A stretch of 64,000 nt of DNA from Rhizobium indicum (GTDB lineage: Bacteria > Pseudomonadota > Alphaproteobacteria > Rhizobiales > Rhizobiaceae). The position numbers were made by a program, and so were the translations under genes. The stretch spans positions 1,798,001 through 1,862,000 of the forward strand of contig NZ_CP054021.1 in NCBI RefSeq assembly GCF_005862305.2. The letters are read 5' to 3'. The notes under the pieces are model-generated. The model was given only the letters and a program-made list of their open reading frames with translations, made no database searches and was not told where the DNA came from. Positions 11,105 through 31,700 of this stretch are shown one piece after another. The first letter of the stretch is position 1; every line of letters starts with the position of its first letter.

Positions 11105-11539
11105 ATGATAGAAAAGATCACGAACCGTGGCGAACTGCAGGCCATGATATTGCGGTCGAACTACACGTTCGATGGTATCCAATTTTTCACGCCGGACGAA
11201 TTTTCGCAGCAACTCGCCTATATGAAGCGACCGACTGGCTATGTCATCCAACCCCACGTTCACAACGCCGTCGCGCGCGAGGTCCTCTATACGAAGGAGG
11301 TCCTGCTTATAAAGTCGGGCGTTGTCCGCGTGGACTTCTATTCCGACGCGCAGGAATACTACGAAAGCGCGATCCTGCGCGCTGGCGACGTCATCCTGCT
11401 TGCCTTCGGCGGACATGGTTTTGAAATCATCGAAGAAGCTGAAATCATCGAAGTCAAACAGGGACCTTATGCCGGAGAATCCGATAAGACACGATTTGTA
11501 CCGTCGGTGCGGGAACTGAAGATAAAGGGTGTCGAATGA
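11105..11539 (+). CDS. Cupin-fold protein of glycan clusters
   Basis: The 144-residue protein shows a jelly-roll pattern: PHVHNAVAREVLYTKEVLLI (His-rich strand), SGVVRVDFYS, LRAGDVILLAFGGHGFEI, and a closing EVKQGPYAGESDKTRF. Similar cupins occur beside sugar-nucleotide genes in other bacteria and may be epimerases or ketoisomerases, but no function is established here. The start is ATG 11105 with GGGAAAGAG upstream; an in-frame TTG at 11090 is less likely. It overlaps the next gene by 4 bases. Confidence 0.65.
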   Translation: MIEKITNRGELQAMILRSNYTFDGIQFFTPDEFSQQLAYMKRPTGYVIQPHVHNAVAREVLYTKEVLLIKSGVVRVDFYSDAQEYYESAILRAGDVILLAFGGHGFEIIEEAEIIEVKQGPYAGESDKTRFVPSVRELKIKGVE

Positions 11540-12645
11540 TTCCGGTCAATGAACCGCTGCTGAATGGTAACGAGAGCAAGTATCTGCTGGAATGTATCGA
11601 GACCGGCTGGATTTCCTCCGAAGGCCCTTTCATCACACGTTTTGAGCGTGAGTTTGCCGCGACTGTCGGCCGCAAGCACGCAATCGCCGTTGCGAACGGT
11701 TCGATGGCTCTCGACGCTGGCATGATGGCGCTTGGCCTGGAGGAAGGCACTGAGGTCATCATGCCGTCCTTCACGATCATTTCCTGCGCAGCAGCCATCG
11801 TGAGAGCGGGTTGTGTGCCGGTTGCGGTGGATTCGGATCCTCTCACCTGGAATATCGATCCGACGAAGATCGAAGCAGCTATTACGCCGAAGACGCGCGC
11901 CATCATGGTGGTGCATATCTATGGCCTGCCCTGCGATATGGCCGCGATCAACGAGATCGCCCGCCGCCACGACCTCAAGATCATCGAAGACGCTGCAGAA
12001 ATGCATGGACAGACATATAACGGCCAGCCTTGCGGCAGTTTCGGCGATGTCAGCATTTTCAGCTTCTATCCCAATAAGCACATTACCACAGGCGAAGGTG
12101 GCATGATCGTCACCGATTCCGACGCCCTTGCCGACAGATCTCGAAGCCTGCGAAATCTCTGCTTCCTGCCTGCCCGTCGCTTTGTTCACGAGGAACTGGG
12201 CTGGAATATGCGTATGACAAATATGCAGGCGGCTTTGGGTTGCGCGCAGCTTGAGCGCCTTCCGGAATTCGTCGAGCGCAAACGTGCGATGGGCAAACTG
12301 TATACCGAGCTGCTTCAGGACCTGCCCGGCATTCAACTGCCGTTGCCCGAGACAACGTATGCCCGGAATATCTATTGGGTCTATGGCATCGTGCTGAAGG
12401 ACGAGATCGATTTCGACGCAGCCGAAGCGATGAAACGATTGGCGGCCAAAGGGGTAGGCTGCCGTCCGTTTTTCTGGCCGATGCACGAGCAGCCCGTTCT
12501 GCAGAAGATGGGCTTCTTCAAGGACGCAGATCTTCCCATCGCCGCAAAGCTTGCGCGCCGCGGCTTCTATATTCCAAGCGGCATGGCGCTGAGGGAAGAT
12601 CAAATTCGCGAAGTCGCGGGTATCGTAGCGGAGGTCATCCGTTGA
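11536..12645 (+). CDS. DegT/DnrJ/EryC1/StrS family sugar aminotransferase
   Basis: The 369-residue PLP enzyme has the family course: GWISSEGPFITRFEREFA, IAVANGSMALDAGMMALGL, VHIYGLPCDMAAI, IIEDAAEMHGQTYNG and SFYPNKHITTGEGGMIVTD, where Lys181 is the expected Schiff-base residue. It should transfer an amino group from glutamate to a keto-sugar nucleotide. Resemblance is strongest to GDP-perosamine synthase-like members, so GDP-4-keto-6-deoxymannose from Gmd is a plausible substrate; the product of the LegB-like dehydratase is the alternative. Confidence 0.88.
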   Translation: MIPVNEPLLNGNESKYLLECIETGWISSEGPFITRFEREFAATVGRKHAIAVANGSMALDAGMMALGLEEGTEVIMPSFTIISCAAAIVRAGCVPVAVDSDPLTWNIDPTKIEAAITPKTRAIMVVHIYGLPCDMAAINEIARRHDLKIIEDAAEMHGQTYNGQPCGSFGDVSIFSFYPNKHITTGEGGMIVTDSDALADRSRSLRNLCFLPARRFVHEELGWNMRMTNMQAALGCAQLERLPEFVERKRAMGKLYTELLQDLPGIQLPLPETTYARNIYWVYGIVLKDEIDFDAAEAMKRLAAKGVGCRPFFWPMHEQPVLQKMGFFKDADLPIAAKLARRGFYIPSGMALREDQIREVAGIVAEVIR

Positions 12646-13415: not shown

Positions 13416-14627
13416 TTGGCGATACATTTGGACGACCGAATTACCTTGCGCCGGAAGAGGATTGGTTTCTATCTCGGAGTAGGCCGCCATGCCGGTGGTA
13501 TGTTCCAGTATGCGCAAAGCCTTGTGCAGGCCCTGTCTTCAATCGACGGCACGGACGTGGAGGTCATCGTTGCCTATGGGGACGAAGCCTGGCGCTCTGA
13601 ACTTGATGCCAGCCCGCTGAAGACCGTCCCGCTGCAGCACTGGAAGCGGGGCGAGACACTTGCCAAGCTGTTCATGGTTCTGCCCGGCTCCGTAGCGCGT
13701 AACATCGCGAGATGGGTGAACCCACTCGTGCGGGAATTGACATCTCTCCAATGTGATCTGTGGATTTTTCCGGCTCAAGACGCCCTGACCTGGCAGATCA
13801 AGGAGCCCTCGATCGCAACCATTCACGATTTGATGCACAGATATGAACGCAGCTTTCCAGAAGCCGGAAGCTGGTTGCGCTTTCAACTGAGAGAAAGCCG
13901 GTTCCGTCACCTTGTGAACCAGGGCGTTGCCGTGCTCGTCGATTCCGAAACCGGGCGGCGGCATGTCATGGAAAGCTACGGTACGCCAGAAGATCACATA
14001 TATCCGCTGCCTTATATCGCTCCGAACTATCTTACGGATTCGGTCGAGACGCCCGCCTTCGCCGAACGCTACCGGCTTCCGGAAAAATTCTATTTTTATC
14101 CGGCGCAATTCTGGCCTCACAAGAATCACTTGCGGCTCATACAAGCGCTGGCAGCCGCGCGCAGGACTCATCCGAACATGGAACTGGTCTTGGCGGGCAA
14201 TACAAAGCGCGAATATGCGGCCGTCAAAGCGACAGCAAGCGAGCTTGGGCTATCCCAAGCTGTTCACTTCGTCGGTTATGTACCGGATTCGGATCTGGCT
14301 GGGTTTTATCGTCGTGCCAGAGGGTTGGTCATGCCGACTTTTTTCGGCCCGACAAACATTCCGCCGCTTGAAGCGATGGTGTGTGGTTGCCCCGTTTTGA
14401 TATCGGACAAGTATGGTATGCGTGAACAGTGCGGCGACGCGGCTCTCTATTTCTCGCCGCAATCCGTCGCGGAAATTCAAGGGGCAATGAGCCGCCTGTG
14501 GGAAGATGAAGACCTACGTTCCTCTTTGATCAAAAAGGGGCTTGAAAGAGCTTCCTTGTGGAAGCAAGAAGATTTCGACCACCGTCTGAGAGAAATTTTG
14601 GGGCGTGTCCTCGATCGAGTCGCATGA
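13416..14627 (+). CDS. Glycosyltransferase family 4 (GT-B), paralogue of the first one
   Basis: The 403-residue protein starts at TTG 13416, three bases after the previous stop. The N-terminal acceptor domain has GVGRHAGGMFQYAQSL. The donor domain has FYPAQFWPHKNHLRLIQAL, VHFVGYVPDSDLAGFYRRA and PTFFGPTNIPPLEAMVCGCP. Its C-terminal half is nearly co-linear with the protein at 8942-10138, so the two arose by duplication and probably add related sugars. The end overlaps the predicted start of the exporter permease. Confidence 0.85.
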   Translation: MAIHLDDRITLRRKRIGFYLGVGRHAGGMFQYAQSLVQALSSIDGTDVEVIVAYGDEAWRSELDASPLKTVPLQHWKRGETLAKLFMVLPGSVARNIARWVNPLVRELTSLQCDLWIFPAQDALTWQIKEPSIATIHDLMHRYERSFPEAGSWLRFQLRESRFRHLVNQGVAVLVDSETGRRHVMESYGTPEDHIYPLPYIAPNYLTDSVETPAFAERYRLPEKFYFYPAQFWPHKNHLRLIQALAAARRTHPNMELVLAGNTKREYAAVKATASELGLSQAVHFVGYVPDSDLAGFYRRARGLVMPTFFGPTNIPPLEAMVCGCPVLISDKYGMREQCGDAALYFSPQSVAEIQGAMSRLWEDEDLRSSLIKKGLERASLWKQEDFDHRLREILGRVLDRVA

Positions 14628-15591
14628 TACATGGCGTTGGTCCATGCAGTCCCCTGAGGCCGTAGAAAATATGGCACGAGTAACGGCTAACGGAGAGTTT
14701 GAGCGCATTAATATGACAGGTCACGTGACAAAACAGGAAGGGGAAAGCGGCACCGAACCCTGGGATATAGTCATCAAGCCGTCCGGCACCATCAGCGTCG
14801 GGCTGACGACCGCGTGGAAATATCGTGAACTTATCTGGATGTTCTTCAAAAGGGATTTCACGACATTCTACAAGCAAACCGTGCTTGGACCGGTTTGGTA
14901 TCTCATACAACCGATACTGACGACGGTCACCTATTACATCGTCTTCGGAAAGATTGCCAATCTCTCGACCGATGGAATTTCCCCGCTTGTCTTTTATATG
15001 TCCGGCACCATTATCTGGAATTATTTCTCAGCTTGCCTCACCAATAACTCAGAAACATTTTCGAAAAACTCGAACTTGTTTGGAAAAGTGTATTTCCCCC
15101 GGCTAGTCGTACCACTCGCAGTCGCGATGAGCGGCCTGGTCGCATTTGCCATCCAATTCACGCTGCTGCTTACGATCTCTTTTGTTCTCTGGCTTAGTCA
15201 GGATGATATTGTGATCAGCTTGCGTTTCGTTTTCGCGACACCATTGATTTTGCTATATGTTGCAACGCTTGGTGTGGGAATGGGACTCTTGGTTTCCGCG
15301 CTGACAGTTCGATATCGTGATCTGGTTTATGCCGTCGGTTTCGTTACGCAGCTTTGGATGTATGCGACACCCGTCGTCTATGCTTTCAGCCAGGTTCCCG
15401 AACGATATCAATGGTTTTACTACCTCAATCCGATGACGACTCCGGTTCAGGTATTCCGTTGGGCACTTTTCGACGCGTCGCCGCTTCCTCTGAGCATTTG
15501 CCTGGCGAATGTCGCGGCCACTCTGATTATTATGTTTGGCGGCTTGATACTTTTTGCGCGGGCTGAGGCAACCGCTATGGATACCGTTTGA
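14605..15591 (+). CDS. wzm: Polysaccharide ABC exporter permease (Wzm/RfbA/KpsM type)
   Basis: The 328-residue membrane protein carries about six helices after residue 65 and the ABC-2 pattern FFKRDFTTFYKQTVLGPVWY, IIWNYFSACLTNNSETF, FGKVYFPRLVVPLA and VRYRDLVYAVGFVTQLWMY, typical of permeases exporting O-antigen or capsule. The exact start is unsure: GTG 14605 overlaps the upstream gene, and ATGs at 14644, 14671 and 14713 are also possible. It is coupled to the ATPase gene by a TGATG overlap. Confidence 0.92.
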   Translation: MSSIESHDTWRWSMQSPEAVENMARVTANGEFERINMTGHVTKQEGESGTEPWDIVIKPSGTISVGLTTAWKYRELIWMFFKRDFTTFYKQTVLGPVWYLIQPILTTVTYYIVFGKIANLSTDGISPLVFYMSGTIIWNYFSACLTNNSETFSKNSNLFGKVYFPRLVVPLAVAMSGLVAFAIQFTLLLTISFVLWLSQDDIVISLRFVFATPLILLYVATLGVGMGLLVSALTVRYRDLVYAVGFVTQLWMYATPVVYAFSQVPERYQWFYYLNPMTTPVQVFRWALFDASPLPLSICLANVAATLIIMFGGLILFARAEATAMDTV

Positions 15592-16910
15592 TGAATGATA
15601 TCGTTATACGCGCCGAGAATGTCAGCAAACACTATCGCTTGGGTATCATCAATCACGGCACCTTGTACCGCGACCTCCAAAGCTGGTGGGCGCGGTTCCG
15701 CAATCTGCCGGACCCCAATGCCTCCGTGTCGGATTACGCTTCCGACAGACAGAACAAGGCTCGGCTTAAGAACGATATTTTTCACGCCCTGGATGATGTC
15801 TCCTTCGAGATCTCCCGCGGCGATATCGTTGGCGTAATCGGTCGCAATGGGGCAGGCAAGTCGACCCTTCTGAAGCTGATGTCTCGCATAACGCGTCCAA
15901 CCTCGGGCTATATTGGCATTCGAGGCAGGATTGCGAGCCTCTTGGAAGTCGGAACCGGCTTCCACCCCGAACTCACGGGCCGCGAAAACGTTTACTTAAA
16001 CGGTGCCATTCTTGGAATGACACACTCCGAAGTTCGCAGGAAGTTCGATGAAATCGTCGAGTTCGCAGAAATCGGCGATTTCATCGACACCCCAGTCAAA
16101 CGTTACTCTTCAGGCATGTATGTTCGACTTGCCTTTTCCGTTGCGGCACATCTGGAACCCGAAATACTTCTTGTCGATGAGGTTTTGGCAGTTGGCGACG
16201 TCAACTTCCAGAACAAATGTATGGGCCGAATGCGGGAGGTGACCAAGGCGGGCCGAACAATCATGTTCGTCAGCCATAATATGACAGCTGTAAGCAGTCT
16301 TTGCCCTCAATCCATTCTGTTGTCCGACGGTCGCGTAGCTGCCGTGGGCAGTACGTCCGATGTCATTCGCGCCTATCTCGACCGGCCTGAACTGAGCGGG
16401 AAGATAGATTTTGAAATCGACCCACAGGATGTCGACGGCAAGGCGGTGATCTCTCGCCTTTCCATCCGAAAGGAAGATGGCGAGTTAGCACAAACTGTTG
16501 AACTCACGAAGAATTTTATCATCGAGATGGAGTATGAACTGCGCGAGCCACTGACAGGGCTTTCCGTCGGGCTGCAGATCATGATGGAGGATGGTTATTC
16601 CTCGGTCATCAGCCTGTCTGATCCGGAACTCGACGTAAGCCGCCTCGACACCCGGTCCCCAGGTTATTATCGGGCACGAGTCGTCATTCCGGCTGGCTTG
16701 TTGAACACTGGAACCTTTTATCTCCGCGCCGGCATTTCCAGCCGTTTTTCGATCTATTCGGTGGTTGAGGGTATTCGGTTCGAAGTCGAAGACAATGTCG
16801 GGATCATCCAGATGCTGGGGCAGCAGCGAAAACCGTCGATTTCGGCGATCCAGCTCCCCTGGGATGTGAAGATGCTCTACCTCCGCGATTCTGAAGGCTT
16901 ATTGAAATGA
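15591..16910 (+). CDS. wzt: Polysaccharide ABC exporter ATPase with C-terminal glycan-recognition domain (Wzt)
   Basis: The 439-residue protein has Walker A GRNGAGKST, the SSGMYVRLAFSVA signature, Walker B LLVDEVLAVGD and the switch His in FVSHNM. After about residue 250 there is an extra beta-rich domain like Wzt-C, which in E. coli O8/O9a binds the modified non-reducing end of the finished chain before export. This suggests that the exported polymer is terminally capped. ATG 15591 shares a base with the permease stop (TGATG). Confidence 0.93.
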   Translation: MNDIVIRAENVSKHYRLGIINHGTLYRDLQSWWARFRNLPDPNASVSDYASDRQNKARLKNDIFHALDDVSFEISRGDIVGVIGRNGAGKSTLLKLMSRITRPTSGYIGIRGRIASLLEVGTGFHPELTGRENVYLNGAILGMTHSEVRRKFDEIVEFAEIGDFIDTPVKRYSSGMYVRLAFSVAAHLEPEILLVDEVLAVGDVNFQNKCMGRMREVTKAGRTIMFVSHNMTAVSSLCPQSILLSDGRVAAVGSTSDVIRAYLDRPELSGKIDFEIDPQDVDGKAVISRLSIRKEDGELAQTVELTKNFIIEMEYELREPLTGLSVGLQIMMEDGYSSVISLSDPELDVSRLDTRSPGYYRARVVIPAGLLNTGTFYLRAGISSRFSIYSVVEGIRFEVEDNVGIIQMLGQQRKPSISAIQLPWDVKMLYLRDSEGLLK

Positions 16911-17887
16911 AGAAAGTACTCGTGACCGGTGCGGACGGCTTCATCGGCTCTCACCTCGTTGAAACCTTGGTCAAGGCAGGCGTGGAAGTCCGCGCCCTCT
17001 GCCAGTACAACTCGTTTTCCAGCTGGGGCTGGCTGGACCAGTCTGAATACCGCGGCAAGTTCGAGGTCATTCTTGGAGACGTTCGCGACCCGGCGCAAAT
17101 GCGTGCCGTCGCTAAAGGCGTTGACACGATATTTCATCTGGCCGCGCTCATCGCTATTCCCTATTCCTATCAGGCGCCGTCCAGCTATGTAGACACCAAC
17201 ATTAATGGCACGTTGAATGTGCTTCAGGGCGCTCTCGATGCAAGCGTTGGCCGCGTCATCCAGACCTCGACCAGCGAGGTCTACGGAACGGCTCGCTTTG
17301 TCCCAATCAGCGAAAGTCATCCGCTGCAGGCACAGTCGCCCTATTCGGCGTCAAAAATCGGTGCTGACGCGATGGCCTACAGCTATCATTCGAGCTTCGA
17401 CCTGCCGGTGACGGTCGCACGGCCTTTCAACACTTTCGGCCCACGACAATCCGCAAGGGCGGTAATTCCGACTGTGATTTCACAGCTTCTGAGCGGACGG
17501 ACGACGCTGAAGCTTGGTGCGCTCTCGCCCACCCGGGATTTCAATTTCGTGCAGGATACATGCGACGGCTTTCTGGCGCTCGCGGCCTGCGACGAAGCCA
17601 TCGGCCAGACGGTCAATATCGGCTCGGGCAGCGAGATATCGATCGGCGATACCGTTCGGCTGATCGCCGATATCATCGGCGTCAGCGTCGAGATCGAATG
17701 CGATGAACAGCGTTTGCGTCCGGCAAACAGCGAAGTGGAACGTTTGTGCTGCGACAACAGCCTGATCAAGTCTCTGACAGGATTTTCGCCGCGTTACAGC
17801 TTGGAAGATGGTCTGAAAGCGACGATCGACTGGCTGCGTCAGCCACAGAATCTGGCGAGATACAAGGCGGATATCTTCAATGTCTAG
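16907..17887 (+). CDS. NAD-dependent sugar-nucleotide 4,6-dehydratase, LegB-like
   Basis: The 326-residue extended SDR has KKVLVTGADGFIGSHLVETL, then ALCQYNSFSSWGWLD, which I know from the LegB-type HexNAc-nucleotide 4,6-dehydratases of legionaminic-acid pathways. It also has QTSTSEVYGTA and SPYSASKIGADAMAY (Thr/Ser, YxxxK). A 4-keto-6-deoxy-HexNAc nucleotide is the likely product. The gene overlaps wzt and the following nucleotidyltransferase, opening the nonulosonate-like block. Assignment is by motif only; a general epimerase remains possible. Confidence 0.8.
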   Translation: MKKVLVTGADGFIGSHLVETLVKAGVEVRALCQYNSFSSWGWLDQSEYRGKFEVILGDVRDPAQMRAVAKGVDTIFHLAALIAIPYSYQAPSSYVDTNINGTLNVLQGALDASVGRVIQTSTSEVYGTARFVPISESHPLQAQSPYSASKIGADAMAYSYHSSFDLPVTVARPFNTFGPRQSARAVIPTVISQLLSGRTTLKLGALSPTRDFNFVQDTCDGFLALAACDEAIGQTVNIGSGSEISIGDTVRLIADIIGVSVEIECDEQRLRPANSEVERLCCDNSLIKSLTGFSPRYSLEDGLKATIDWLRQPQNLARYKADIFNV

Positions 17888-18593
17888 GCGCGCAGTCATT
17901 CTGGCCGGCGGAATGGGAACGCGGTTGCGGCCCTATACCGTCGTGCTTCCAAAGCCTTTGATGCCGATCGGCGACTATCCTATTCTTGAGGTGATCATTC
18001 GTCAGCTGATATCAGGCGGATTTCAACATATAACGCTTGCCGTCAACCACCAGGCCGAGCTGATCAAGGCTTTCTTCCAGGATGGCGACAAGTGGGGTGT
18101 ACGCATCGACTATTCGCTTGAGGACGAACCTCTTGGCACCATGGGGCCGCTGCGGCTGATAAAGGATCTGCCGGAGAATTTCCTGGTGATGAACGGCGAC
18201 ATTCTGACGGATCTCAACTATGCCGATTTTCATGATGCTCACGTCCGCGACGGGAATATATTCACGATCTCGTCCAAGACGCGTCAGCATCGCATAGACT
18301 ATGGCGTTCTTGACACCGGCGAGGCCGGGCTGTTGACCGGTTTTCGAGAGAAACCGACGGCCGAATACAAAGTCAGCATGGGCGTCTACATGGTGTCTTC
18401 GAGGGCCGTCGAGCACATACCACAAGGTGGTGCCTACGGCTTCGATCAGTTGATGCTTGATCTTCTTGCGGCCGGCAAGCCGGCCACGGTTCGAGATTTT
18501 GCAGGCTATTGGCTCGATATCGGACGGCCTGACGATTATGCCTTGGCGATCGAGCAGTTCGAATCCATGCGGTCCAGGTTCTTGAATGGTTGA
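17880..18593 (+). CDS. Sugar-1-phosphate nucleotidyltransferase
   Basis: The 237-residue enzyme has AVILAGGMGTRLRPYT, the pyrophosphorylase signature, followed by PKPLMPIGDYPILE, DEPLGTMGPL and FLVMNGDILTDLNY, where the Asp binds metal. It lacks any C-terminal hexapeptide acyltransferase domain, so it only makes NDP-sugars. In the legionaminic-acid cluster of Campylobacter a comparable enzyme (PtmE) makes GDP-glucosamine, so that role is a reasonable guess next to a LegB-like enzyme. It overlaps both neighbouring genes by 8 bases. Confidence 0.85.
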   Translation: MSRRAVILAGGMGTRLRPYTVVLPKPLMPIGDYPILEVIIRQLISGGFQHITLAVNHQAELIKAFFQDGDKWGVRIDYSLEDEPLGTMGPLRLIKDLPENFLVMNGDILTDLNYADFHDAHVRDGNIFTISSKTRQHRIDYGVLDTGEAGLLTGFREKPTAEYKVSMGVYMVSSRAVEHIPQGGAYGFDQLMLDLLAAGKPATVRDFAGYWLDIGRPDDYALAIEQFESMRSRFLNG

Positions 18594-19431
18594 TGCCATC
18601 GTCACCGGTGCTGGCGGTTTTCTTGGGAGTCGTCTGGTCAGACGGCTTGAGCAAGCTGGTTTTGACGTGCTCGCGCTTGACCGAACGCATGGAGACATAA
18701 GCGAAGAAAAGGTTTGGCAGGAGCTTCCCGCCGCACGCACGCTGTTTCACCTTGCCGGCAGGACATTTGTTCCAGATAGCTGGAGCCAAGGACCGAGTTT
18801 CACGGCCGCCAACGTCCTCGGAACGCAACACGCTTTGAACTGGTGCAAGCGACACAAGGCCAAACTCGTGTTCGCAAGCGCCTATGTTTACGGGGTGCCT
18901 GACCGGCTGCCGATCCATGAAAGCGATCCGGTCAGGCCGAACAACCCTTATGCCCTTTCCAAACATCTTGCCGAACAGCTTTGTGAGTTCGCCGCCACGC
19001 ACGAGCAGATACCGGTGGTGGTATTGCGTCTTTTCAATATATACGGCGCAGGGCAGCGACCCGAATTTCTGATACCGACGCTTCTGAACCAGATACGGGC
19101 GAAGCAGGAAATACAGGTCCTGGATCTCAGTCCCCGGCGAGACTATATCTTCGTTGACGATGTCCTGAGCGCCTTTGCCAAGGCCATGGACGTCGCGGAA
19201 GGCTACCATTGCATCAATATCGGCTCCGGAATGTCGTATTCGGTGCAGGAAATAATCGACATCTTGCAAGAAGCTGCCGGCACTGCTCTACCTGTAGTGT
19301 CATCTTGCACAGTTCGGCGGAATGAAATACCTGACGTGCGGGCCGATATCACGCGGGCTCGCACCATTCTCGGATGGCGGCCGGAATGGGATCTGCCGGC
19401 CGGGATGCGCGCGATGATGAAGGAGTCGTAA
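18586..19431 (+). CDS. NAD-dependent epimerase/dehydratase (extended SDR)
   Basis: The 281-residue SDR has DAIVTGAGGFLGSRLVRRL, FHLAGRTFVPDSW, FASAYVYGVPDRLPIHE and PYALSKHLAEQLCEFA (YxxxK), and a C-terminal part with the usual DYIFVDDVLSAF. It is shorter than typical dehydratases, as with 4-ketoreductases or C4-epimerases. It probably reduces or epimerises an intermediate made by the two preceding genes. The exact substrate is unknown. Confidence 0.8.
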   Translation: MVDAIVTGAGGFLGSRLVRRLEQAGFDVLALDRTHGDISEEKVWQELPAARTLFHLAGRTFVPDSWSQGPSFTAANVLGTQHALNWCKRHKAKLVFASAYVYGVPDRLPIHESDPVRPNNPYALSKHLAEQLCEFAATHEQIPVVVLRLFNIYGAGQRPEFLIPTLLNQIRAKQEIQVLDLSPRRDYIFVDDVLSAFAKAMDVAEGYHCINIGSGMSYSVQEIIDILQEAAGTALPVVSSCTVRRNEIPDVRADITRARTILGWRPEWDLPAGMRAMMKES

Positions 19432-19432
19432 A

Positions 19433-20503
19433 TTGAACGAACGTTACGTTCCGATCAACAAGGGCAACTACTCGATGGACACGGTCGAGCGCGAAGCCGC
19501 GTTCGACAAATTCCGGGGCGAAGGGTGGGAAGCCGAATACGCAGATTACCGTCGCAAATGGTCAGAATATGCCCTGACCCAGCAGGTTTCGGACTATCCG
19601 CTGCTGGTCGATCTTGAACTGGCATCGATCTGCAATCTGCGCTGCCCGATGTGCTATACGATCAGCGACGAGTTCAAGAAAAGTGTGAACACGACGCGGA
19701 TGGACTGGGATCTCTACTGCCGCATCATCGATGAGATCGGCGGCAAAGTTCCTGCGATCCGTCTGTCGCTGCGGGGCGAGGCCACGCTGCACAAGCGCTT
19801 CGCCGACTGTGTGCGTTATGCCAAGGATCATGGGATCAAGGAAGTCTCGACCCTCACGCACGGCTTCAAGCTCAACAGAGACTATTTCGCTCAGCTTGTC
19901 GACGCCGGCATCGACTGGATCACCGTTTCAATCGACGGCACCGGTGAGACCTACGAGAAAATCCGCAAGCCGATCAAGTTCGAGGCCCTGCTCGACAAGA
20001 TCAAAGACATCAAGAAGTACAAAGACGAGCGCGGGCTCCACCGTCCGGTCATCAAGGTGCAGGGCATCTGGCCGGCGATCAGGGAAAATCCGGATCTCTA
20101 CTATGAAACCTTTGCGCCTCATGTGGATCTTGTCGCCTTCAACCCGCTGATCGACTATCTCGGCAACGATTCTGACGTTCAATATCTGGATAACTTCACC
20201 TGCCCTCAGCAATACCAGCGCCTCGTTATCGGCGCCGACGGGCTTGTGATGAAGTGCTCGAACGACGAGGAAAATCGCGAAGTCATTGGTGACGCGACGA
20301 TGGAGACGGTACACCAGATTTGGCACGGCGAAAAAATGAATGCAGTCCGCGCCTTGCACAAAGAACCGCAGGGCTTCTTGAAAAGCGAAGTATGCCGCCG
20401 ATGCTACCTGCCTCGCCTGACGGATGACGAGCCGACCGAAATCTGCGGCCGGAAAGTGATTGTCCGAAATTACGTGGATCGGGCTCAGGAAATCGGAAAA
20501 TAG
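19433..20503 (+). CDS. Radical SAM enzyme with C-terminal SPASM-type domain
   Basis: The 356-residue protein has the radical SAM cluster C67-NLR-C71-PM-C74 in LASICNLRCPMC, a SAM-binding LSLRGEATLH strand and ITVSIDGTGETYEKIR. A Cys-rich tail (FTCPQQYQRL, LVMKCSNDEE, SEVCRRCYLPR) would hold an auxiliary FeS cluster. Such enzymes do radical dehydrogenation, epimerisation or peptide maturation. Here it lies between sugar-nucleotide SDR genes and a NeuB-like gene, so a carbohydrate substrate is likely. The start is TTG 19433 with GGAG 8 bases upstream. Confidence 0.85.
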   Translation: MNERYVPINKGNYSMDTVEREAAFDKFRGEGWEAEYADYRRKWSEYALTQQVSDYPLLVDLELASICNLRCPMCYTISDEFKKSVNTTRMDWDLYCRIIDEIGGKVPAIRLSLRGEATLHKRFADCVRYAKDHGIKEVSTLTHGFKLNRDYFAQLVDAGIDWITVSIDGTGETYEKIRKPIKFEALLDKIKDIKKYKDERGLHRPVIKVQGIWPAIRENPDLYYETFAPHVDLVAFNPLIDYLGNDSDVQYLDNFTCPQQYQRLVIGADGLVMKCSNDEENREVIGDATMETVHQIWHGEKMNAVRALHKEPQGFLKSEVCRRCYLPRLTDDEPTEICGRKVIVRNYVDRAQEIGK

Positions 20504-20602
20504 AGAAGCAGCCGGGAGTCGTATACTGGTCGTGTGCGGGATGACGTCGCTGTGCTACCGCTATTGGAACGCCGGCTGTATAGTGAATTGCAGGAGTAGC
20601 AG

Positions 20603-21619
20603 ATGTTCCGGAACTACCGACCTGACCGGTGTTATATTATCGCCGAAATCGGCGGGAATTTTACGACTTTTGATCAGGCAAGACGGCTGATCAACGAGGC
20701 AAAGGCGTCCGGCGTGGATGCTGTCAAGCTCCAGACTTATCGCGCAGAGACCCTGTCGAGCCGCAACGCCATGTTCGATATGGAAAACACCGGCGTTACC
20801 TCGCAATTCGAGCTTTTCCGTAAGTATGAAATCGGTCACGAGCTTCACGAAGCGGTTTTCCGCTATGCCGAGGAGCATGGGCTGGACTGGTTTTCGTCGC
20901 CCTCACACGAAACGGATGTCGATCTGTTGGAGAAGTGTGGGGTTGGTGCCCACAAGGTGGGTTCGGACGATGCGGTCAACATTCCCTTTCTCCGCTATCT
21001 GGCAAAAACGGGCAAGCCGATAATCCTGTCGACGGGGATGTCGACGCTCGACGAAGTTCGGGAATCCGTTGCCGCAATCAAGGAGGCGGGTAATCAGAAG
21101 CTCATTCTGCTGCACGCCATCACAAGTTATCCGACGCATCCGGAAAATGTGAACCTGCGCGCAATGCAAACGATGATGGAGGCGTTTCCGGATCTCGACG
21201 TTGGCTATTCCGACCATACGTTGTCCCCCGTCGCCAGCCTTTGTGCTGCCGCGATGGGGGCACGGGTTATAGAGCGGCATTTCACCTACGACAAAGCCGC
21301 CGACGGTCCCGACCACATACTCTCCGCCGATCCGGCGGAAATGAAATGGCTTGTGGATGCGATACGTGCGTTCGAGATCATGAAGGGCAGTGGTCGCAAA
21401 GAGCCGGCAGCAAGTGAAGCGACGACAAGATTGAACAACCGCAAAAGCATTGTCGTCAATCGACCGCTCAAAGCCGGCCATGTCATCTCTGCCGGCGATA
21501 TCTCTGTCAAACGACCTGGGACGGGAGTCGAACCTAAGCATCTCGAAACTCTTGCGGGGCGACGGCTCGTAAAGGATCTTGATGCGGACGCCGTTCTCCA
21601 GTGGAGCGATCTGGCGTGA
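20603..21619 (+). CDS. NeuB-family nonulosonic acid synthase with SAF domain
   Basis: The 338-residue enzyme matches NeuB/SpsE/PseI: YIIAEIGGNF, DAVKLQTY, DWFSSPSHETDVDLLEKC, AHKVGSDDAVNIPFL, ILSTGMSTLDEV, LLHAITSYPTHPENVNL, VGYSDHT, and a C-terminal antifreeze-like SAF domain from about residue 280 (KSIVVNRPLKAGHVIS). The family condenses phosphoenolpyruvate with a six-carbon amino sugar to give a nine-carbon 2-keto acid. Which sugar is used cannot be read from sequence. The next gene overlaps by GTGA. Confidence 0.88.
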   Translation: MFRNYRPDRCYIIAEIGGNFTTFDQARRLINEAKASGVDAVKLQTYRAETLSSRNAMFDMENTGVTSQFELFRKYEIGHELHEAVFRYAEEHGLDWFSSPSHETDVDLLEKCGVGAHKVGSDDAVNIPFLRYLAKTGKPIILSTGMSTLDEVRESVAAIKEAGNQKLILLHAITSYPTHPENVNLRAMQTMMEAFPDLDVGYSDHTLSPVASLCAAAMGARVIERHFTYDKAADGPDHILSADPAEMKWLVDAIRAFEIMKGSGRKEPAASEATTRLNNRKSIVVNRPLKAGHVISAGDISVKRPGTGVEPKHLETLAGRRLVKDLDADAVLQWSDLA

Positions 21620-22293
21620 CGCTTGGCATCATTATCCAGGCGCGGATGGGATCGACCCGATTGCCGGGAAAGGTGCTTCGCGACATTTCCGGCAAGCCGC
21701 TTCTCGGACATGTCCTGGGTAGGCTTCAGATGTTGACGCGGCCTGCCAGGATTGTCGTTGCAACATCATCGGCCGGCGAGAACGATATGATCGAAGCCTG
21801 GTGCCTTGAGCACGGCGTAAGCTGCTTTCGTGGCGACGAAGCCGATGTTCTCGATCGTTATTTTCAATGCGCAAAATCGCTCGGAATGTCCGACATTGTT
21901 CGATTGACCGCGGATAATCCTTTCACTGACATCGAGGAGCTCGAAAGGCTGATCGATCTGCACCAAAGACAGGGATTCGACTACACGCATGCGTTCGGCC
22001 AGTTGCCTATAGGCGTCGGCGCCGAAATATTTACCTTCGAAGCGCTGTCGCGCAGTCATCGCGAGGGAAAACTGCCGCACCATCGCGAGCACGTGAATGA
22101 ATACTTCACCGACCGGCCGGAACTGTTCAAGATCGGCCAGCTCGACGTGCCGCCGGCCAAAATATCCCCCGAACTGCGCCTGACGGTAGATACTGAAGAA
22201 GACTGGAGACGTGCCTGTGCTCTTACAGCGCGCGGGGGTGGGAACTGGCTCGGGACAGAAGAAGCGATCAGACTATGTTCGTCTTCTGCATAG
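21616..22293 (+). CDS. Acylneuraminate cytidylyltransferase family protein (SpsF-like)
   Basis: The 225-residue protein begins TLGIIIQARMGSTRLPGKVL, the CTP-binding loop of the SpsF branch of CMP-NeuAc/CMP-Kdo synthetases, and continues CFRGDEADVLDRYFQCA and VRLTADNPFTD. It should activate the 2-keto acid made by the preceding gene as a CMP-sugar. I chose GTG 21616, which overlaps the neuB-like stop (GTGA) and has GGAG upstream; GTG 21601 is an alternative. The order SpsE-SpsF-SpsG is that of the Bacillus sps operon. Confidence 0.83.
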   Translation: MTLGIIIQARMGSTRLPGKVLRDISGKPLLGHVLGRLQMLTRPARIVVATSSAGENDMIEAWCLEHGVSCFRGDEADVLDRYFQCAKSLGMSDIVRLTADNPFTDIEELERLIDLHQRQGFDYTHAFGQLPIGVGAEIFTFEALSRSHREGKLPHHREHVNEYFTDRPELFKIGQLDVPPAKISPELRLTVDTEEDWRRACALTARGGGNWLGTEEAIRLCSSSA

Positions 22294-23240
22294 AAAGTTC
22301 GCATGCACGCGGAATGGGGCATCTGTTTCGATCGTTGACACTCGCCACCGAACTGCGTTCGCGCGGTCATCCGGTCCTATTTCTAGCGAACGATCATCCG
22401 AATTCGTTGAGGATCATCCGGGAGCGCGGCTTTGACGTGGCGCTTTATGGTCTCGCCTCCGTGACCGGATGGGAGAATGGCTTTATCGAACCCGATGCAA
22501 GTTCCTCGGTCTGGATCAATGACCGCCTCAATACGCAGCGATCCCACAGTGAAGCGATCAAGCGTTTGGGCGCCAAGCTCGTTACCTTTGATGATCGTGG
22601 CGATGGCGCGGAACTTGCCGACATCAACATCTGCGCTCTCCTGTTCGAAAAGACGGAGGATCTCAAGGGCAAGGATGTTCGGCTGGGGGTGGAGTACATG
22701 ATACTCAATCCGGAAATCGCGGCGTTTCGCAGGCTTCGGCAAAGCCTCGCGTCGATCCTGGTCACGCTCGGCGGCGCCGATACCTACGGCGTGACTGTCC
22801 GCGTCGCCAAATGGCTGAGCAGCAAGTCTTTTCCCGTCACGATCGTTACAGGCCCGAGCTTCCAGCACATGGCGGAGCTTGAAGAGGTCGTCGCGACCGC
22901 GGCACCCGATCGGTTCAAACTGCTCAACCAGGTGCCGTCGCTTGCGGCAGAGATGCATGGGCACGATCTGGCGATTACCGGCGGCGGTGTTACACCTTTC
23001 GAAGCCTGTGCGGCTGGCTTGCCGTGTGTGGTGATCGCCAACGAACCTTTCGAAATCCCGGTCGGACGTGCACTCGAGGGGTTAGGAGCGGCGTTCTTTG
23101 CCGGGCATCACTCGGCGTTCGATCTCGGCATCCTGGAAAAGCCGATCCCCATCAGGACCATGAGCGAGACTGCCATGGCCAAGGTTGACCTTGGCGGCGT
23201 CGGCCGCGTTGCCGATTTGCTTGAAAGACTGGCTGCATGA
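22275..23240 (+). CDS. PseG/SpsG-like nucleotide-sugar hydrolase or glycosyltransferase
   Basis: The 321-residue GT-B-like protein opens FVFCIESSHARGMGHLFRSL, matching the xGxGHxxR loop of PseG, then has ILVTLGGADTYGVTVRVAKWL and LAITGGGVTPFEACAAGLPCVVI, the nucleotide site. PseG removes UDP from the 2,4-diamino sugar before NeuB-type condensation. The protein thus completes a hydrolase-synthase-cytidylyltransferase trio, although in reverse gene order. It overlaps both neighbours. Confidence 0.78.
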   Translation: MFVFCIESSHARGMGHLFRSLTLATELRSRGHPVLFLANDHPNSLRIIRERGFDVALYGLASVTGWENGFIEPDASSSVWINDRLNTQRSHSEAIKRLGAKLVTFDDRGDGAELADINICALLFEKTEDLKGKDVRLGVEYMILNPEIAAFRRLRQSLASILVTLGGADTYGVTVRVAKWLSSKSFPVTIVTGPSFQHMAELEEVVATAAPDRFKLLNQVPSLAAEMHGHDLAITGGGVTPFEACAAGLPCVVIANEPFEIPVGRALEGLGAAFFAGHHSAFDLGILEKPIPIRTMSETAMAKVDLGGVGRVADLLERLAA

Positions 23241-23938
23241 CCATCACAGCGGTTATTCACCAGCCGGATTTCGCTTCATATCTCGGCTTTTTTCAGCGTT
23301 TTTTGAATGCCAACCTCTATATCGTTCTCGATCACGTTCAGTTTGTCCATGGCACGAGCAAGAGCTGGACGCATCGTGATAAAATAAAGACGGCACAGGG
23401 CGATCGGTGGCTCACCGTCGGAATCAGAAAGCCAAGGCTCGGCACCCGGATCAACGAGGTGGAAATGGCGCCCGGCACCGAATGGATTGACCAAAACCTT
23501 TCCCTGCTTCGCGAAAACTATCGCAAGTCCGCCGGTTGGAGCGAGGTCTTTCCGCGCATCGAGGCTCTCTACGGCAAGCGGTTCGATCTGCTGGCCGATT
23601 TCAACATGCATTTCCTCGAAGGCATCCTGGATATGCTTCAAATCACCATGCCAACAGTGCGGTCGAGTGCGTTAAGCCCGGAGGGGCATAAGAACGAATT
23701 GCTTATCGAACTGCTGCGCAAGGTAGGAGCAACACGTTATCTCTCAGGTCTCGGCGCGCGCGGCTATATGCAGCCTGAACTGTTCGAGGCAGCCGGGATC
23801 GAAATCGAATGGCAGCATTTCGTCCATCCGGTTTATCCACAGCCCTTCGGCGAGTTCATGCCCTATCTCAGCATCCTCGACACACTGCTGAATTGTGGTA
23901 TTGCAGGCACGCGTGACCTGCTCTGGAGTTGCAAATGA
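23237..23938 (+). CDS. WbqC-like family protein
   Basis: The 233-residue protein matches the WbqC family: AVIHQPDFASYLGFFQRFLN, LYIVLDHVQFVHGTSKSWTHRDKI, WLTVGIRK, TRYLSGLGARGYMQPELFE and QHFVHPVYPQPFGEFMPYLSILD. Members occur in O-antigen and glycan clusters, and their biochemical activity is not settled to my knowledge. The upstream overlap is 4 bases (ATGA), so it belongs to the nonulosonate-like transcription unit. It may act on an acyl or amino decoration of the sugar; this is inference. Confidence 0.8.
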   Translation: MTITAVIHQPDFASYLGFFQRFLNANLYIVLDHVQFVHGTSKSWTHRDKIKTAQGDRWLTVGIRKPRLGTRINEVEMAPGTEWIDQNLSLLRENYRKSAGWSEVFPRIEALYGKRFDLLADFNMHFLEGILDMLQITMPTVRSSALSPEGHKNELLIELLRKVGATRYLSGLGARGYMQPELFEAAGIEIEWQHFVHPVYPQPFGEFMPYLSILDTLLNCGIAGTRDLLWSCK

Positions 23939-24567
23939 ATATTCTCGCGATCGGTGCCCATTTTGACGACGTGGAACTAGGCTGTGGCGGTGCATTGGCG
24001 CGTCACGCTACAAACGGCGACACGGTTTATGTCTATGTCGCGACCGTATCCGGCTTTTCCAACCAGTATGACCAGTCCGTCCGCAGCAGCCAGGTCGCCA
24101 GGGCGGAAGCGGATGCTGCGATGGACATTCTCGGCGTCCAAAAGATGTTCTGTGGTGAGTTCAAAACCCTTCAGATCGAATTCGTCGATCCGCTGAATAT
24201 CGAGATCCTCAAGCTCGTGCAGGATCTGAAGATCGATATGGTCTACACCCACTGGGTCGGAGACATCCACCATGACCACCTGGCCTTGTCGCGCGCATCG
24301 CTGCACAGCTGCCGCCATGTGCCTCGTCTGCTGATGTACCGCAGCAACTGGTACCATTCGACCGTCGATTTCAGGGGGAATTTCTACGTCGACATCACCT
24401 CCCATTGGGACCAGAAGGAAAAGGCGATCCTTGCCCATGAATCCGAGATGGAGCGCACGGGGCGGAAATGGGTGAGCTTCTTCCGCAACGAAGCCGAGAA
24501 CGCCGGCCAGCGCATCGGTGTAAAATACGCGGAGGTTTTTGAGGTGGTGAAGTGGCTGCAGCTTTGA
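23935..24567 (+). CDS. PIG-L family deacetylase
   Basis: The 210-residue protein has the LmbE/PIG-L signature ILAIGAHFDDVELGCGGALARH (AHxDD zinc motif) and the later HWVGDIHHDHLALSRA, whose His completes the zinc site. The family removes N-acetyl groups from GlcNAc-type sugars or related amides. Next to WbqC it could free an amino group so another acyl group can be installed. ATG 23935 overlaps the WbqC stop by ATGA. Confidence 0.88.
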   Translation: MNILAIGAHFDDVELGCGGALARHATNGDTVYVYVATVSGFSNQYDQSVRSSQVARAEADAAMDILGVQKMFCGEFKTLQIEFVDPLNIEILKLVQDLKIDMVYTHWVGDIHHDHLALSRASLHSCRHVPRLLMYRSNWYHSTVDFRGNFYVDITSHWDQKEKAILAHESEMERTGRKWVSFFRNEAENAGQRIGVKYAEVFEVVKWLQL

Positions 24568-25418
24568 GGAAGATTTTGACCTTTGGCTCCATGCTGCTCC
24601 CCTATGGTGTGCATGAGTTGAGGCGCAGGCTAAGTACTCGCCACAAATTCTCTGCTGATGTCGCGAGATCACTGGCAGAAAATAGACAGCTTGCTGGTCA
24701 GCACGAGGGTGGCCGCTGTTTTATTTTAGGGAACGGCCCGAGCGTCAAGGGCTTGGATCTGTCGCGACTTCATGGCGAAGCCGTTATAACCGTTTCCAAC
24801 GGCTATTTGCACTCCGATTTTGGCAAGTTCCAGTCTCGTTATCATTGTGTCCCGCAGATTACCTACGTGACGATGACATCGGAGGACGTGATCGACTGGT
24901 TTAACGAGATGCATTCGCACTTGGGCGCCGCGGAACTGTTTCTCAGTTCTACTGAAGCGGAGCTCGTTCGAAAACACAATCTGTTTTCAGGGCGAACGGT
25001 TCGGTATCTCGTGCTCGGTGAAAGCTTCGACGAAAGAACATCAGAGGAAATCGTCGATATCTCTCAACCGGTCCCTCGTGTCGAGTCGGTGCCGGTGATG
25101 GCCTTGATGATAGCGATGTATCTTGGTTTCAAAGAGATCATCCTGCTCGGCGTCGACCACGATCGTTTCCTGTCATCAACCTACCAATATGCGTTCGACC
25201 TCAAGGTGCAAAAGGGAAAAGATTTCACCGTCAATGCGGACGGCACCCTGACAAGGAGCCGTCACGACGAGTTTCAGCAGCTGGCGCGGCTGTGGCGGCA
25301 GTATCGAGCCATCGCAAATATTGCCAAAGCGAATGGTATCCGCGTCGTCAATTCCACACCCGGCGGAGCACTGGACGAATTTGAGAGGCGGCCTTTCCAA
25401 GCTTGGTTCGAAGAATGA
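24552..25418 (+). CDS. MptE/DUF115-like or Cst-type (GT42-like) protein, possible CMP-sugar transferase
   Basis: The 288-residue product has GRCFILGNGPSVKGLDLSRL, VITVSNGYLHSDF, and PVMALMIAMYLGFKEIILLGVDHDRFL. This GNGPS-to-GVDxD layout is shared by the MptE/Maf (DUF115) proteins and bacterial sialyltransferases of the Cst-II type. Because it follows CMP-nonulosonate-like genes, a role as the transferase using that CMP-sugar is attractive. That is inferred, not shown. The start is GTG 24552, overlapping the PIG-L gene by 16 bases. Confidence 0.65.
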   Translation: MAAALRKILTFGSMLLPYGVHELRRRLSTRHKFSADVARSLAENRQLAGQHEGGRCFILGNGPSVKGLDLSRLHGEAVITVSNGYLHSDFGKFQSRYHCVPQITYVTMTSEDVIDWFNEMHSHLGAAELFLSSTEAELVRKHNLFSGRTVRYLVLGESFDERTSEEIVDISQPVPRVESVPVMALMIAMYLGFKEIILLGVDHDRFLSSTYQYAFDLKVQKGKDFTVNADGTLTRSRHDEFQQLARLWRQYRAIANIAKANGIRVVNSTPGGALDEFERRPFQAWFEE

Positions 25419-28714: not shown

Positions 28715-31700
28715 TCACGCAAAAAGGAAATCCCCCGAGTCTAGGCTCGTCAAGGCTACGTTCCTCAACACTATGGTGTTGTCGATATCGGCTGTAACGA
28801 TTGTATCGTTGCCATACTGACTGGATGCAGCAAAAAGCGATTCCCAGTCGGCGAAAATGTTGTGATCGATTCTGATCGTGTCGTGCGCCGTGCCGGTTGC
28901 CATGAAGTCTATGATCGTGTCGTGGCCCCAGTTCGACAAATAAACGAACAAGTCTGCCGCCTCGCCACCAACGAGGATGTCGTTGCCGGCGCCACCGGCA
29001 ATGGTGTCGGTCCCGCTACCGCCGACGATTAGGTTGTCCAGCGAGTTTCCTGTTCCGACAAAGTCCGTCGTTCCGATATAGGTGAGGTTCTCGACATCAC
29101 TGCCAAGCGTGTAACTCGCCAGTGTCGTGCGAACCGTGTCGATCCCCGCGTCAGCGTTCTCGGCTACGATATCGACGGCATTGTCGACGATGTAAGTGTC
29201 ATTGCCTGCCCCGCCGATCAAGGTATCGGCGCCGGCGCCACCATCCAGCACATCATTGCCGGCGCCGCCGGTGATCGTGTTGGCGAGAGCATTGCCGGTG
29301 CCGGTGAAGTTTGCCGATCCCGTGTAGGTGAGGTTCTCGACATTGTTGCCGATCGTATAGCTGGCAAGCGCCGTCTGGACCGTGTCTGTCCCCTCGTTCG
29401 CATTCTCGATCACAAGGTCGGTCGCAATATCGACGACATAAAGGTCGTCACCCGTCCCGCCTGACATCGTGTCGGAACCCGCACCACCAATCAATGTGTC
29501 GTTGCCGACGCCACCGCTGAGATTGTCCGCAGCTGCCCCACCGGTCAGGACGTTGCTCAGCGCATTGCCCGTGCCGGCAAAGGCTGCCGTTCCGATATAG
29601 GTGAGGTTCTCGACATTGGCTCCCAGTGTGTAGGCGGCCAGGGCCGTGCGAACCGTGTCGGTTCCCGCGGCGGCGTTCTCGGCAACGCTGTCACCGACAT
29701 TGTCGACGATATAGGTGTCGTCGCCCGCACCGCCGATCAGCGTATCGGCGCCTGCCCCGCCATTCAGCACATCGTTGCCGGCGCCGCCGGTGATGGTGTT
29801 GGCGAGCGCATTGCCGGTGCCAGTGAAGCTGGCCGATCCCGTGTAGCTCAGGTTCTCGACATTGATCAGTGCAGCGATCGAGTAGGTCGCAAGCGACGTG
29901 CGGATTTCGTCGGTGCCGGCACTGGCCAACTCGGTGACGATGTCGCTCGCACTGTCGACCACATAGATGTCGTTGCCCGCACCGCCGTTCAGCGTGTCAT
30001 TGCCGGCGCCGCCGTCCAGCAGATCGTTGCCGGCACCGCCGGTGATCGTGTTGGCGAGCGCATTGCCGGTGCCGATAAAATCGCCGGTGCCGATGAAAGC
30101 TAGGTTTTCGACATTGGCAATATTGGTCAAGGCATAGGAAGAAAGCACCGTCCTGATCAGATCGGTCCCTTCATTCACCCCTTCGGTGACCACGTCGGCC
30201 AGATCATCGACGATATAGATGTCGCTGCCCGCTCCGCCGATCAAACTATCGGCACCAGCCCCGCCATTCAGCGTGTCGTTGCCGACACCACCAGTGATCG
30301 TGTTGGCAAGGCTATTGCCTGTCCCGGCAAAGGCTGCCGTTCCGATGTAGGTGAGGTTCTCGACATTGGCTCCCAGTGTGTAGGCGGCCAGTATCGTGCG
30401 AACCGTGTCGGTTCCTTCATCGGCGTTCTCGGCAACGCTGTCGCCGGCATTGTCGACGATATAGGTGTCGTCGCCCGCACCGCCGATCAAGCTATCGGCA
30501 CCTGCCCCGCCATTCAGCGTATCGTTGCCGTCGCCGCCTGACAGCGTATCGATGGCAGCCGCCCCTGTGATTACATTGTCGAGATCGTTCCCGGTCCCGG
30601 CAAAGGCTGCCGTTCCGATATAGGTGAGGTTCTCGACATTGGCGCCAAGCGTATAGCTTGCCAGGGTCGTGCGAACCATGTCGGTTCCCGCGGCGGCGTT
30701 TTCGGCAACGCTGTCGCCGACATTGTCGACGATATAGGTGTCGTCGCCCGCTCCGCCGATCATCGTGTCGGCGCCTGCCCCGCCATTCAGCGTGTCATTG
30801 CCGGCGCCGCCGGTGATCGTGTTGGCCAGCGCATTGCCGGTGCCGGTGAAGTTGGCCGATCCCGTGTAGCTCAGGTTCTCGACATTGATCAGTGCAGCGA
30901 TCGAGTAGGCTGCAAGCGACGTGCGGATTTCGTCGGTGCCGGCACTGGCCAACTCGGTGACGATGTCGCTCGCACTGTCGACCACATAGATGTCGTTGCC
31001 CGCACCGCCGTTCAGCGTGTCATTGCCGGCGCCGCCGTCCAGCAGATCGTTGCCGGCGCCGCCGATGATCGTGTTGGCGAGCGCATTGCCGGTGCCGGTG
31101 AAGTCGGCGGATCCCGTGTAGCTCAGCTTCTCGACATTGTTGCCGAGCGTATAGTTTGCCAGCACGGTCTTGACCGTGTCGGTTCCCGCGCCGGCGTTCT
31201 CGGCAACGCTGTCGCCGGCATTGTCGACGATATAGGTGTCGTCGCCCGCACCGCCGATCATCGTGTCGGCACCTGCCGCACCATTCAGCGTGTCGTTGCC
31301 GACACCACCAGTGATCGTGTTGGCAAGGCTATTGCCTGTCCCGACAAAGGCTGCCGTTCCGATGTAGGTGAGGTTCTCGACATTGACGCCAAGCGTATAG
31401 TTTGCCAGCACGGTCTTGACCGTGTCGGTTCCTTCATCGGCGTTCTCGGCAAGGCTGTCGCCGGCATTGTCGACGATATAGGTGTCGTCGCCCGCACCGC
31501 CGATCAGCGTATCGGCGCCTGCCCCGCCATTCAGCGTATCGTTGCCGTCGCCGCCTGACAGCGTATCAGCGGCGGCCGCCCCTGTGATTACATTGTCGAG
31601 ATCGTTCCCGGTCCCGGCAAAGGCTGCCGTTCCGATATAGGTGAGGTTCTCGACATTGACGTCAAGCGTATAGCTTGCCACGGTCGTGCGAACCATGTCG

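Follow-up and report, generated by a model that had tools for sequence, protein, structure and literature searches.

A nine-gene cassette of Rhizobium indicum with a radical SAM enzyme and a WbqC/PIG-L pair, probably for a sialic-acid-like sugar

The window analyzed here is a stretch of 64,000 nucleotides of the Rhizobium indicum genome (contig NZ_CP054021.1, positions 1,798,001 to 1,862,000), in which nine genes at 16907 to 24567 probably form a transferable cassette that makes a sialic-acid-like nine-carbon sugar, activated with CMP (cytidine monophosphate), of a type that we did not find described. That a nonulosonate pathway is encoded here appears very likely. The cassette codes for a LegB-type dehydratase, a nucleotidyltransferase, a short-chain dehydrogenase/reductase (SDR), a radical S-adenosylmethionine (SAM) enzyme, a NeuB-family synthase, an SpsF-like cytidylyltransferase, a PseG-like hydrolase, a WbqC protein, and a PIG-L deacetylase, and is followed by an MptE/Cst-like gene. 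A preliminary description of this DNA had presented these ten proteins as a nonulosonic-acid-like pathway coupled to a Wzm/Wzt exporter. Its list is right in every item, all ten being encoded where it placed them on the plus strand, and its view of the pathway gains support from NeuB, the PseG-like protein, the cytidylyltransferase, a fusion of NeuB with the radical SAM enzyme in relatives, and the GT42-like transferase. The unusual product that it considered possible is likewise supported as probable.

As the query for related cassettes we used the radical SAM protein, the product of a gene that one would not expect in a pathway of this type. At an E value of 1e-20 it had 2195 relatives, a figure that does not imply cassette membership of every one, and the protein of R. 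ruizarguesonis is 99% identical. Scanning contigs for two exact peptide words, which under-counts divergent relatives, gave 36 loci in species-representative genomes, 11 of them from Rhizobium species and some shortened by contig ends (G281 and L023 are probably one genome). Partners (LegB, nucleotidyltransferase, SDR, NeuB, SpsF, PseG, WbqC, and PIG-L) were counted within 10 kb with a threshold of 100 bits, and all eight are present in 28 of these loci; as the loci were found through the radical SAM protein alone, the gene order is not due to chance. Four others hold seven partners, L017 (on a short contig) holds five, L038 two, and L035 and L036 none. The full loci span five named phyla (Pseudomonadota, Nitrospirota, Nitrospinota, Chlorobiota, and Bacillota), to which the seven-partner loci add Bacteroidota and Thermodesulfobacteriota. 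Gene order is largely conserved outside the Lachnospiraceae and rearranged within them, and the SDR sits between the nucleotidyltransferase and the radical SAM enzyme in 31/36 loci.

Identity matrices of the eight partner families correlate with that of the radical SAM protein (r of 0.889 to 0.971 over 26 rows), values inflated by rhizobial near-copies, which make up 14 of the rows, the window included. With the window as the sole rhizobial row (13 rows), r was 0.444 for LegB and 0.682 to 0.807 for the other seven, correlations equalled by 0 or 1 of 1000 shuffles; for the non-core Wzt it was 0.519 over 7 rows, compared with 0.877 for NeuB over the same rows. Part of this correlation is shared descent, yet the nine genes do occur together. 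Their distribution is patchy, with the cassette in 2 of 297 genomes of the order (host genome included) and the radical SAM protein, at E 1e-40, in 4 of 398 genomes of the phylum (host genome and one distant relative included), compared with NeuB in 96 of 249. The host genome (7.53 Mb, 6 contigs) has a single NeuB match. Rhizobium carriers have a common core and a very similar Wzt, and their flanks are of two types (L004 to L011, L013, and L023 versus the window and L012), which differ in DegT and glycosyltransferase genes and look as if the core stayed and the remainder of the chain were swapped.

Of the 36 loci, some of which are cut by contig ends, 20 have a Wzt of at least 300 bits and 25 an MptE/Cst-like gene of at least 100 bits, so the exporter and the transferase look like attachments to the cassette. 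The coupling to a Wzm/Wzt exporter in the preliminary description is consequently not tied to the cassette itself. The protein encoded at 24552 to 25418 scored 24 bits against the MptE-like Pfam family (cut-off, 34.6) and had no match to GT42 or any other Pfam family at E 0.001. A profile of 17 relatives (A3), searched against the PDB, found the sialyltransferases Cst-I and Cst-II (Cst-II at E 3.6e-5, positions 54 to 252); the single sequence matched Cst weakly (E 0.0038 over 184 to 220). It is plausible, from this profile similarity to GT42 and MptE-like proteins over about 200 positions, that the protein is a nonulosonate transferase.

The contents of the loci place the radical SAM enzyme in nonulosonate synthesis. 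All 36 loci contain a NeuB-family gene, counting two fusions: in L035, NeuB-SAF and radical SAM-SPASM parts are joined in a single protein of 706 residues, and L036 has a homologue of 706 residues whose first 350 group with L035 among the NeuBs. The gene before the L035 fusion codes for a PseF-PseG-like fusion, both halves of which are below cut-off. A 49% identical relative in Clostridium (L038, 711 to 12467) follows PseB, PseC, PseI, and PseG, all over cut-off, in a locus that also has two formyltransferase-like genes, PIG-L, and a Maf/MptE-like protein, and NeuB also lies near the more distant relatives (56% and 32% identical) in two further genomes. These loci have other neighbors as well. 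Behind the L035 fusion (5035 to 12620) lie an amino-acid adenylation protein that passes its cut-off and an AAC(3)-like one, and two genes ahead of the fusion is a DUF4910 protein that recurs beside NeuB in L076 (869 to 2221); in L038, a flavodoxin/ferredoxin-like protein could feed electrons to the radical SAM enzyme.

Cysteines 67, 71, and 74 (CX3CX2C) and 257, 275, 321, and 324, the presumed cluster ligands, are invariant in 38 of 38 sequences (39 of 39 with L075), and no other cysteine is invariant among the relatives. The sequence therefore has the twitch-type combination of CX3CX2C and one four-cysteine auxiliary cluster site. Its best match by profile and by fold is BtrN, a radical SAM dehydrogenase that acts in butirosin synthesis; this comparison draws on the reactions of BtrN, SpeY, and DesII and on the cluster ligands of BtrN. 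All three share the CX3CX2C motif and the four-cysteine twitch domain with our enzyme, which differs from BtrN in its low identity (14 to 22% in structural alignments), an extra conserved N-terminal stretch (VPINKGNY in most), and its location in nonulosonate operons, with fusion to NeuB in two of them.

The synthase has the NeuB domain followed by a SAF domain that is typical of the family, and the motifs AEIGGNF, KLQTY, G[YF]SDHT, and E[RK]HFT are conserved in 34 of 34 sequences. It missed both NCBI equivalogs, TIGR03569 (329.6 bits; cut-off, 399.65) and TIGR03586 (279.2 bits; cut-off, 340.25). A tree of 22 cassette loci and the window (near-identical Rhizobium rows omitted), 11 controls, and three enzymes of solved structure places all 23 cassette NeuBs in a single clade (Shimodaira-Hasegawa-like approximate likelihood ratio test, SH-aLRT, 99) apart from SiaC (1xuu), SpsE (1vli), which was the only LegI reference, and PseI (8h2c), as well as from the PseI of L038. 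The tree comes from a quick search with SH-aLRT only, for which 19 of 30 control NeuB loci were dropped with aligned stretches under 280 residues, and the position of the clade is uncertain because of long branches. The preliminary description had made its reading depend on the branch of this protein; membership of the NeuB family stands, but the protein lies below the NeuB and PseI cut-offs and in a clade of its own with the other cassette NeuBs, so homology does not tell exactly which product it makes. The PseG-like protein had no Pfam match at E 0.001.

In the front end of the pathway, all 34 cassette LegBs of at least 350 bits, window included, have STSEVYG unchanged, and each retains the dehydratase glutamate; as a PseB, the window dehydratase failed (TIGR03589, 64.7 versus 407.75 bits). 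The best NCBIfam models for the nucleotidyltransferase are guanylyltransferases and GlmU-like, all below cut-off. The SDR keeps YxxxK and has Y or C in place of the glutamate that marks dehydratases (33 of 33), and among solved sequences MoeE5 and GDP-6-deoxy-D-mannose reductase are closest to it, with many UDP-glucose 4-epimerases next. Together, the missing glutamate and the reductase-like nearest sequences suggest a reduced 4-position and thus a hydroxyl at C7. The SDR is a possible 4-keto reductase, or it may be a 4-epimerase, and we consider a nonulosonate without an amine at C7 fairly likely.

The preliminary description was correct in noting that the operon lacks LegH/PseH, as no LegH-type N-acetyltransferase is found among the ten proteins encoded at 15588 to 24567 (the rest of the genome was not searched for LegH). 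It had missed that LegC/PseC is absent too, with no aminotransferase in a Pfam and NCBIfam scan of the cassette proteins, and this absence is the more telling one. The exchange of LegH for a radical SAM enzyme that it suggested does not swap like for like, as relatives may have one more gene ahead of NeuB, next to a radical SAM gene that is intact. In the eight relatives in which this gene was examined, it codes for a hexapeptide acetyltransferase (five), an AT3 acyltransferase (one), or a methyltransferase-like protein (two, one of them weak); at this place, between radical SAM and NeuB, the window has a 99-nucleotide gap.

Our direct evidence consists of gene content, conservation, co-occurrence, the link to NeuB, and predicted folds, and from it we infer every chemical step of the following route. 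The nucleotidyltransferase would activate an N-acetylhexosamine (HexNAc) 1-phosphate, probably that of N-acetylglucosamine; LegB would dehydrate the activated sugar to a 4-keto-6-deoxy sugar, and the SDR would reduce the 4-ketone, with no amination by an aminotransferase. The PseG-like enzyme would release 6-deoxy-HexNAc, from which NeuB, with phosphoenolpyruvate, would form 5-acetamido-3,5,9-trideoxy-nonulosonic acid with OH rather than NH2 at C7, and the SpsF-like enzyme would make the CMP sugar. The radical SAM enzyme would act on the same intermediates, near the step of NeuB; its most likely role is that of a twitch dehydrogenase of the BtrN type, oxidizing a hydroxyl. PIG-L would strip the N-acetyl group, and WbqC, with its BshC-like fold, would acylate the amine thus exposed, perhaps with an amino acid. 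In the window strain, the GT42-like protein would place the sugar on the Wzm/Wzt-exported chain. Taken as a whole, the proposal that a sialic-acid-like sugar undergoes editing by a radical SAM enzyme while it is being built, that a BshB/BshC-type pair swaps N-acetyl for an amino acid, and that the cassette moves between phyla is one that we put forward tentatively.

Two of these steps have alternative readings. An oxidase role of the radical SAM enzyme is possible, at somewhat less than an even chance; a DesII-like deaminase/dehydratase or an epimerase, which would give a deoxy, keto, or epimeric nonulosonate and not a simple oxidation product, seems rather unlikely, as BtrN leads by profile and fold and as no invariant cysteine is left beyond the seven presumed ligands, which speaks against a radical SAM epimerase with a cysteine hydrogen donor. 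The balance is different for WbqC, a family of which one gene has reportedly been guessed to be a glycine transferase. The protein (233 amino acids) matched PF08889 alone in the Pfam scan and has a predicted fold that matches BshC, and its neighbor PIG-L, in which AHFDD is invariant (32 of 32 cassette proteins), is nearest to BshB1 (TIGR04001, 82.3 bits; cut-off, 182.5), an arrangement reminiscent of bacillithiol synthesis. WbqC nevertheless differs from BshC in length (540 amino acids in the latter) and context (surface polysaccharide), and no similarity by sequence was detected between the two, hhalign giving only 1.3% and 1.2% in profile-profile comparison with BshC (PF10079; longest frame from each of 26 loci, 25 confirmed). 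An amino-acid or acyl amide ligase is a tentative assignment, and it comes close to an even chance that the BshC match reflects a shared nucleotidylyltransferase-type fold and that WbqC is another nucleotidyltransferase or an acyltransferase. The Foldseek and VIA lists leave room for other families, and PIG-L lies within 1.5 kb in 20 of 30 WbqC loci outside the cassette, the other 10 being without it. The accessible parts of the literature show WbqC as a neighbor of DegT in Bacteroides and Dickeya (PMC10434189, PMC9650423) and term it functionally uncharacterised (PMC5532660). A sample of 249 genomes from the phylum had the family in 65. Across 21 WbqC proteins, the residues that do not vary include H8, Q9, P10, D11, R47, K51, G171, and G173. 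In L139 (8736 to 15137, minus strand), WbqC adjoins an asparagine-synthase-like gene, flanked by two distant radical SAM/SPASM genes, with no NeuB match in the 20 kb examined; in L141 (6006 to 9503, minus strand), which is a second home of the WbqC-PIG-L pair, WbqC, a BshB1-like PIG-L, and a DegT-like gene adjoin a PF00953 glycosyltransferase, with no NeuB match in the 18 kb examined.

The operon could also be an ordinary legionaminic acid pathway in which the upstream DegT (11536 to 12645) acts as LegC, the acetyltransferase comes from elsewhere, and radical SAM, WbqC, and PIG-L only decorate the product. LegB is indeed over its cut-off, this DegT matches LegC best (333 to 335 bits) and is transcribed in the same direction, and relatives of LegC below the cut-off occur in 13/13 carrier genomes (12 with the cassette and one Clostridium variant), one of them, from Schaedlerella, reaching 416.3 of the 420 bits at about 2.6 Mb from the cassette. 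We nevertheless regard this as improbable, as LegC passes the cut-off in 0/13 of these genomes, 10 of the 11 Rhizobium loci have another DegT of much lower similarity (177 to 188 bits) close to the exporter, no DegT was matched in 10 of the 28 full loci (four of them shortened by contig ends), and the SDR keeps its place as described above. More likely, the upstream DegT serves another sugar of the chain; in L004 the less similar DegT stands behind an FdtA gene, which was confirmed in that locus only. Another 2-keto sugar acid (e.g., C8 or C10), made by NeuB from a different acceptor, would fit the low equivalog scores and separate branch of this enzyme, but the full conservation of its motifs and the LegB, PseG-like, and SpsF-like partners, which suit a HexNAc-derived route, make this very unlikely. 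Bradyrhizose, a C10 sugar of the Bradyrhizobium O-antigen considered because the host belongs to the Rhizobiales, was dropped, as the literature gave no link to the cassette genes. Fusaminic acid was considered as the product and may still apply as regards stereochemistry; the accessible part of one paper that names this sugar mentions no radical SAM gene (PMC7371886).

The known systems that resemble the cassette include the CMP-legionaminic acid pathway. CMP-legionaminic acid is made, according to the accessible parts of PMC13317340 and PMC7439481, by a GDP-linked route in Campylobacter (LegB-C-H-G-I-F plus PtmE) and a UDP-linked one in Bacillus subtilis (SpsM-C-D-G-E-F). The cassette shares with it the LegB-type dehydratase, PseG/LegG-like hydrolase, NeuB-family synthase, and SpsF-like cytidylyltransferase, but is without LegC/SpsC and LegH/SpsD and adds the SDR, radical SAM enzyme, WbqC, and PIG-L. 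With the pseudaminic acid pathway (PseB-C-H-G-I-F) it has PseG-like and PseI-like steps in common, and the Clostridium relative lies beside Pse genes; however, the window dehydratase is LegB and not PseB, and the cassette contains no PseC or PseH. As the dehydratase, hydrolase, synthase, and cytidylyltransferase are known ones, we see here a variant of nonulosonate synthesis and not a new kind of system. Literature searches, with most subscription journals outside their scope, returned nothing on radical SAM enzymes with nonulosonic acid or sialic acid synthase, nor on BtrN with nonulosonic acids, and the cassette is not described in the accessible parts of PMC7371886, PMC7439481, PMC13317340, PMC5372718, PMC6282198, PMC12925313, PMC6309461, PMC10434189, PMC9650423, and PMC5532660. 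As far as we found, the radical enzyme and the deacetylase/ligase-like pair are absent from the described sialic-acid-type pathways that could be checked.

Table 1. Cassette genes and neighbors in the window (gene starts are mechanical first start codons)
Feature	Position	Strand	Match
DegT aminotransferase, LegC-like but below cut-off	11536..12645	+	TIGR04181, 335 bits (cut-off, 420)
Wzm-type ABC-2 permease, neighboring exporter	14605..15591	+	PF01061, 71.3 bits; overlaps start of Wzt
Wzt-type ATPase with C-terminal Wzt_C, neighboring exporter	15588..16910	+	PF00005, 77.8 bits; PF14524, 30.4 bits (at cut-off)
LegB-type 4,6-dehydratase	16907..17887	+	TIGR04180, 517.9 bits (cut-off, 475)
Sugar-1-phosphate nucleotidyltransferase	17880..18593	+	PF00483, 131.8 bits
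SDR, possible 4-keto reductase	18586..19431	+	PF01370, 161.3 bits
Radical SAM/SPASM (twitch) enzyme, BtrN-like fold, cassette marker	19433..20503	+	PF04055 and PF13186, over cut-offs
NeuB-family nonulosonate synthase with SAF domain	20603..21619	+	PF03102, 275.7 bits; PF08666, 45.1
SpsF-like cytidylyltransferase	21601..22293	+	PF02348, 108.5 bits
PseG/SpsG-like nucleotide-sugar hydrolase	22275..23240	+	TIGR03590, 117.8 bits (below cut-off, 153.55)
WbqC protein, BshC-like fold	23237..23938	+	PF08889, over cut-off
PIG-L de-N-acetylase, BshB1-like	23929..24567	+	PF02585, 67.4 bits
GT42-like (Cst)/MptE-like probable nonulosonate transferase	24552..25418	+	Profile of relatives versus Cst enzymes

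The genes at 14605 to 25418, from Wzm/Wzt to the MptE/Cst-like gene, are all on the plus strand and lie within a stretch of low G+C content at about 4 to 28 kb (0.52 to 0.57, compared with 0.57 to 0.65 outside). The mostly overlapping starts and stops reported earlier are borne out: adjacent genes from LegB onward overlap by 4 to 19 nucleotides, except for SDR and radical SAM, which are 1 nucleotide apart, and the 99-nucleotide gap before NeuB. Upstream of the cassette, a GDP-mannose 4,6-dehydratase, a second epimerase-family gene, and an AT3-SGNH O-acyltransferase (6214 to 8229, minus strand, and 4080 to 6056, plus strand) suggest that the same surface polysaccharide may also hold a GDP-derived deoxyhexose. 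Past the polysaccharide locus, a gene at 28715 to 38452 (minus strand) codes for a protein of 3245 residues in which RTX calcium-binding repeats matched 28 times and a serralysin C-terminal domain once.

To our knowledge, the known nonulosonate routes differ by aminotransferases, acetyltransferases, and epimerizing dehydratases, and a radical enzyme together with a deacetylase/ligase pair like that of bacillithiol synthesis is what the cassette brings in addition. Our proposal implies a keto acid whose mass is specified in advance, accessible to standard alpha-keto-acid labelling, and yields a testable hypothesis for the WbqC family, which would gain a function. If it is true, this would be the first radical step in nonulosonate metabolism as far as we could find. 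Nonulosonic acids influence the recognition of bacteria by hosts, phages, and plants, and a single cassette that plugs into varied sets of glycosyltransferases and exporters would give soil, aquatic, and gut bacteria the same acidic surface sugar.

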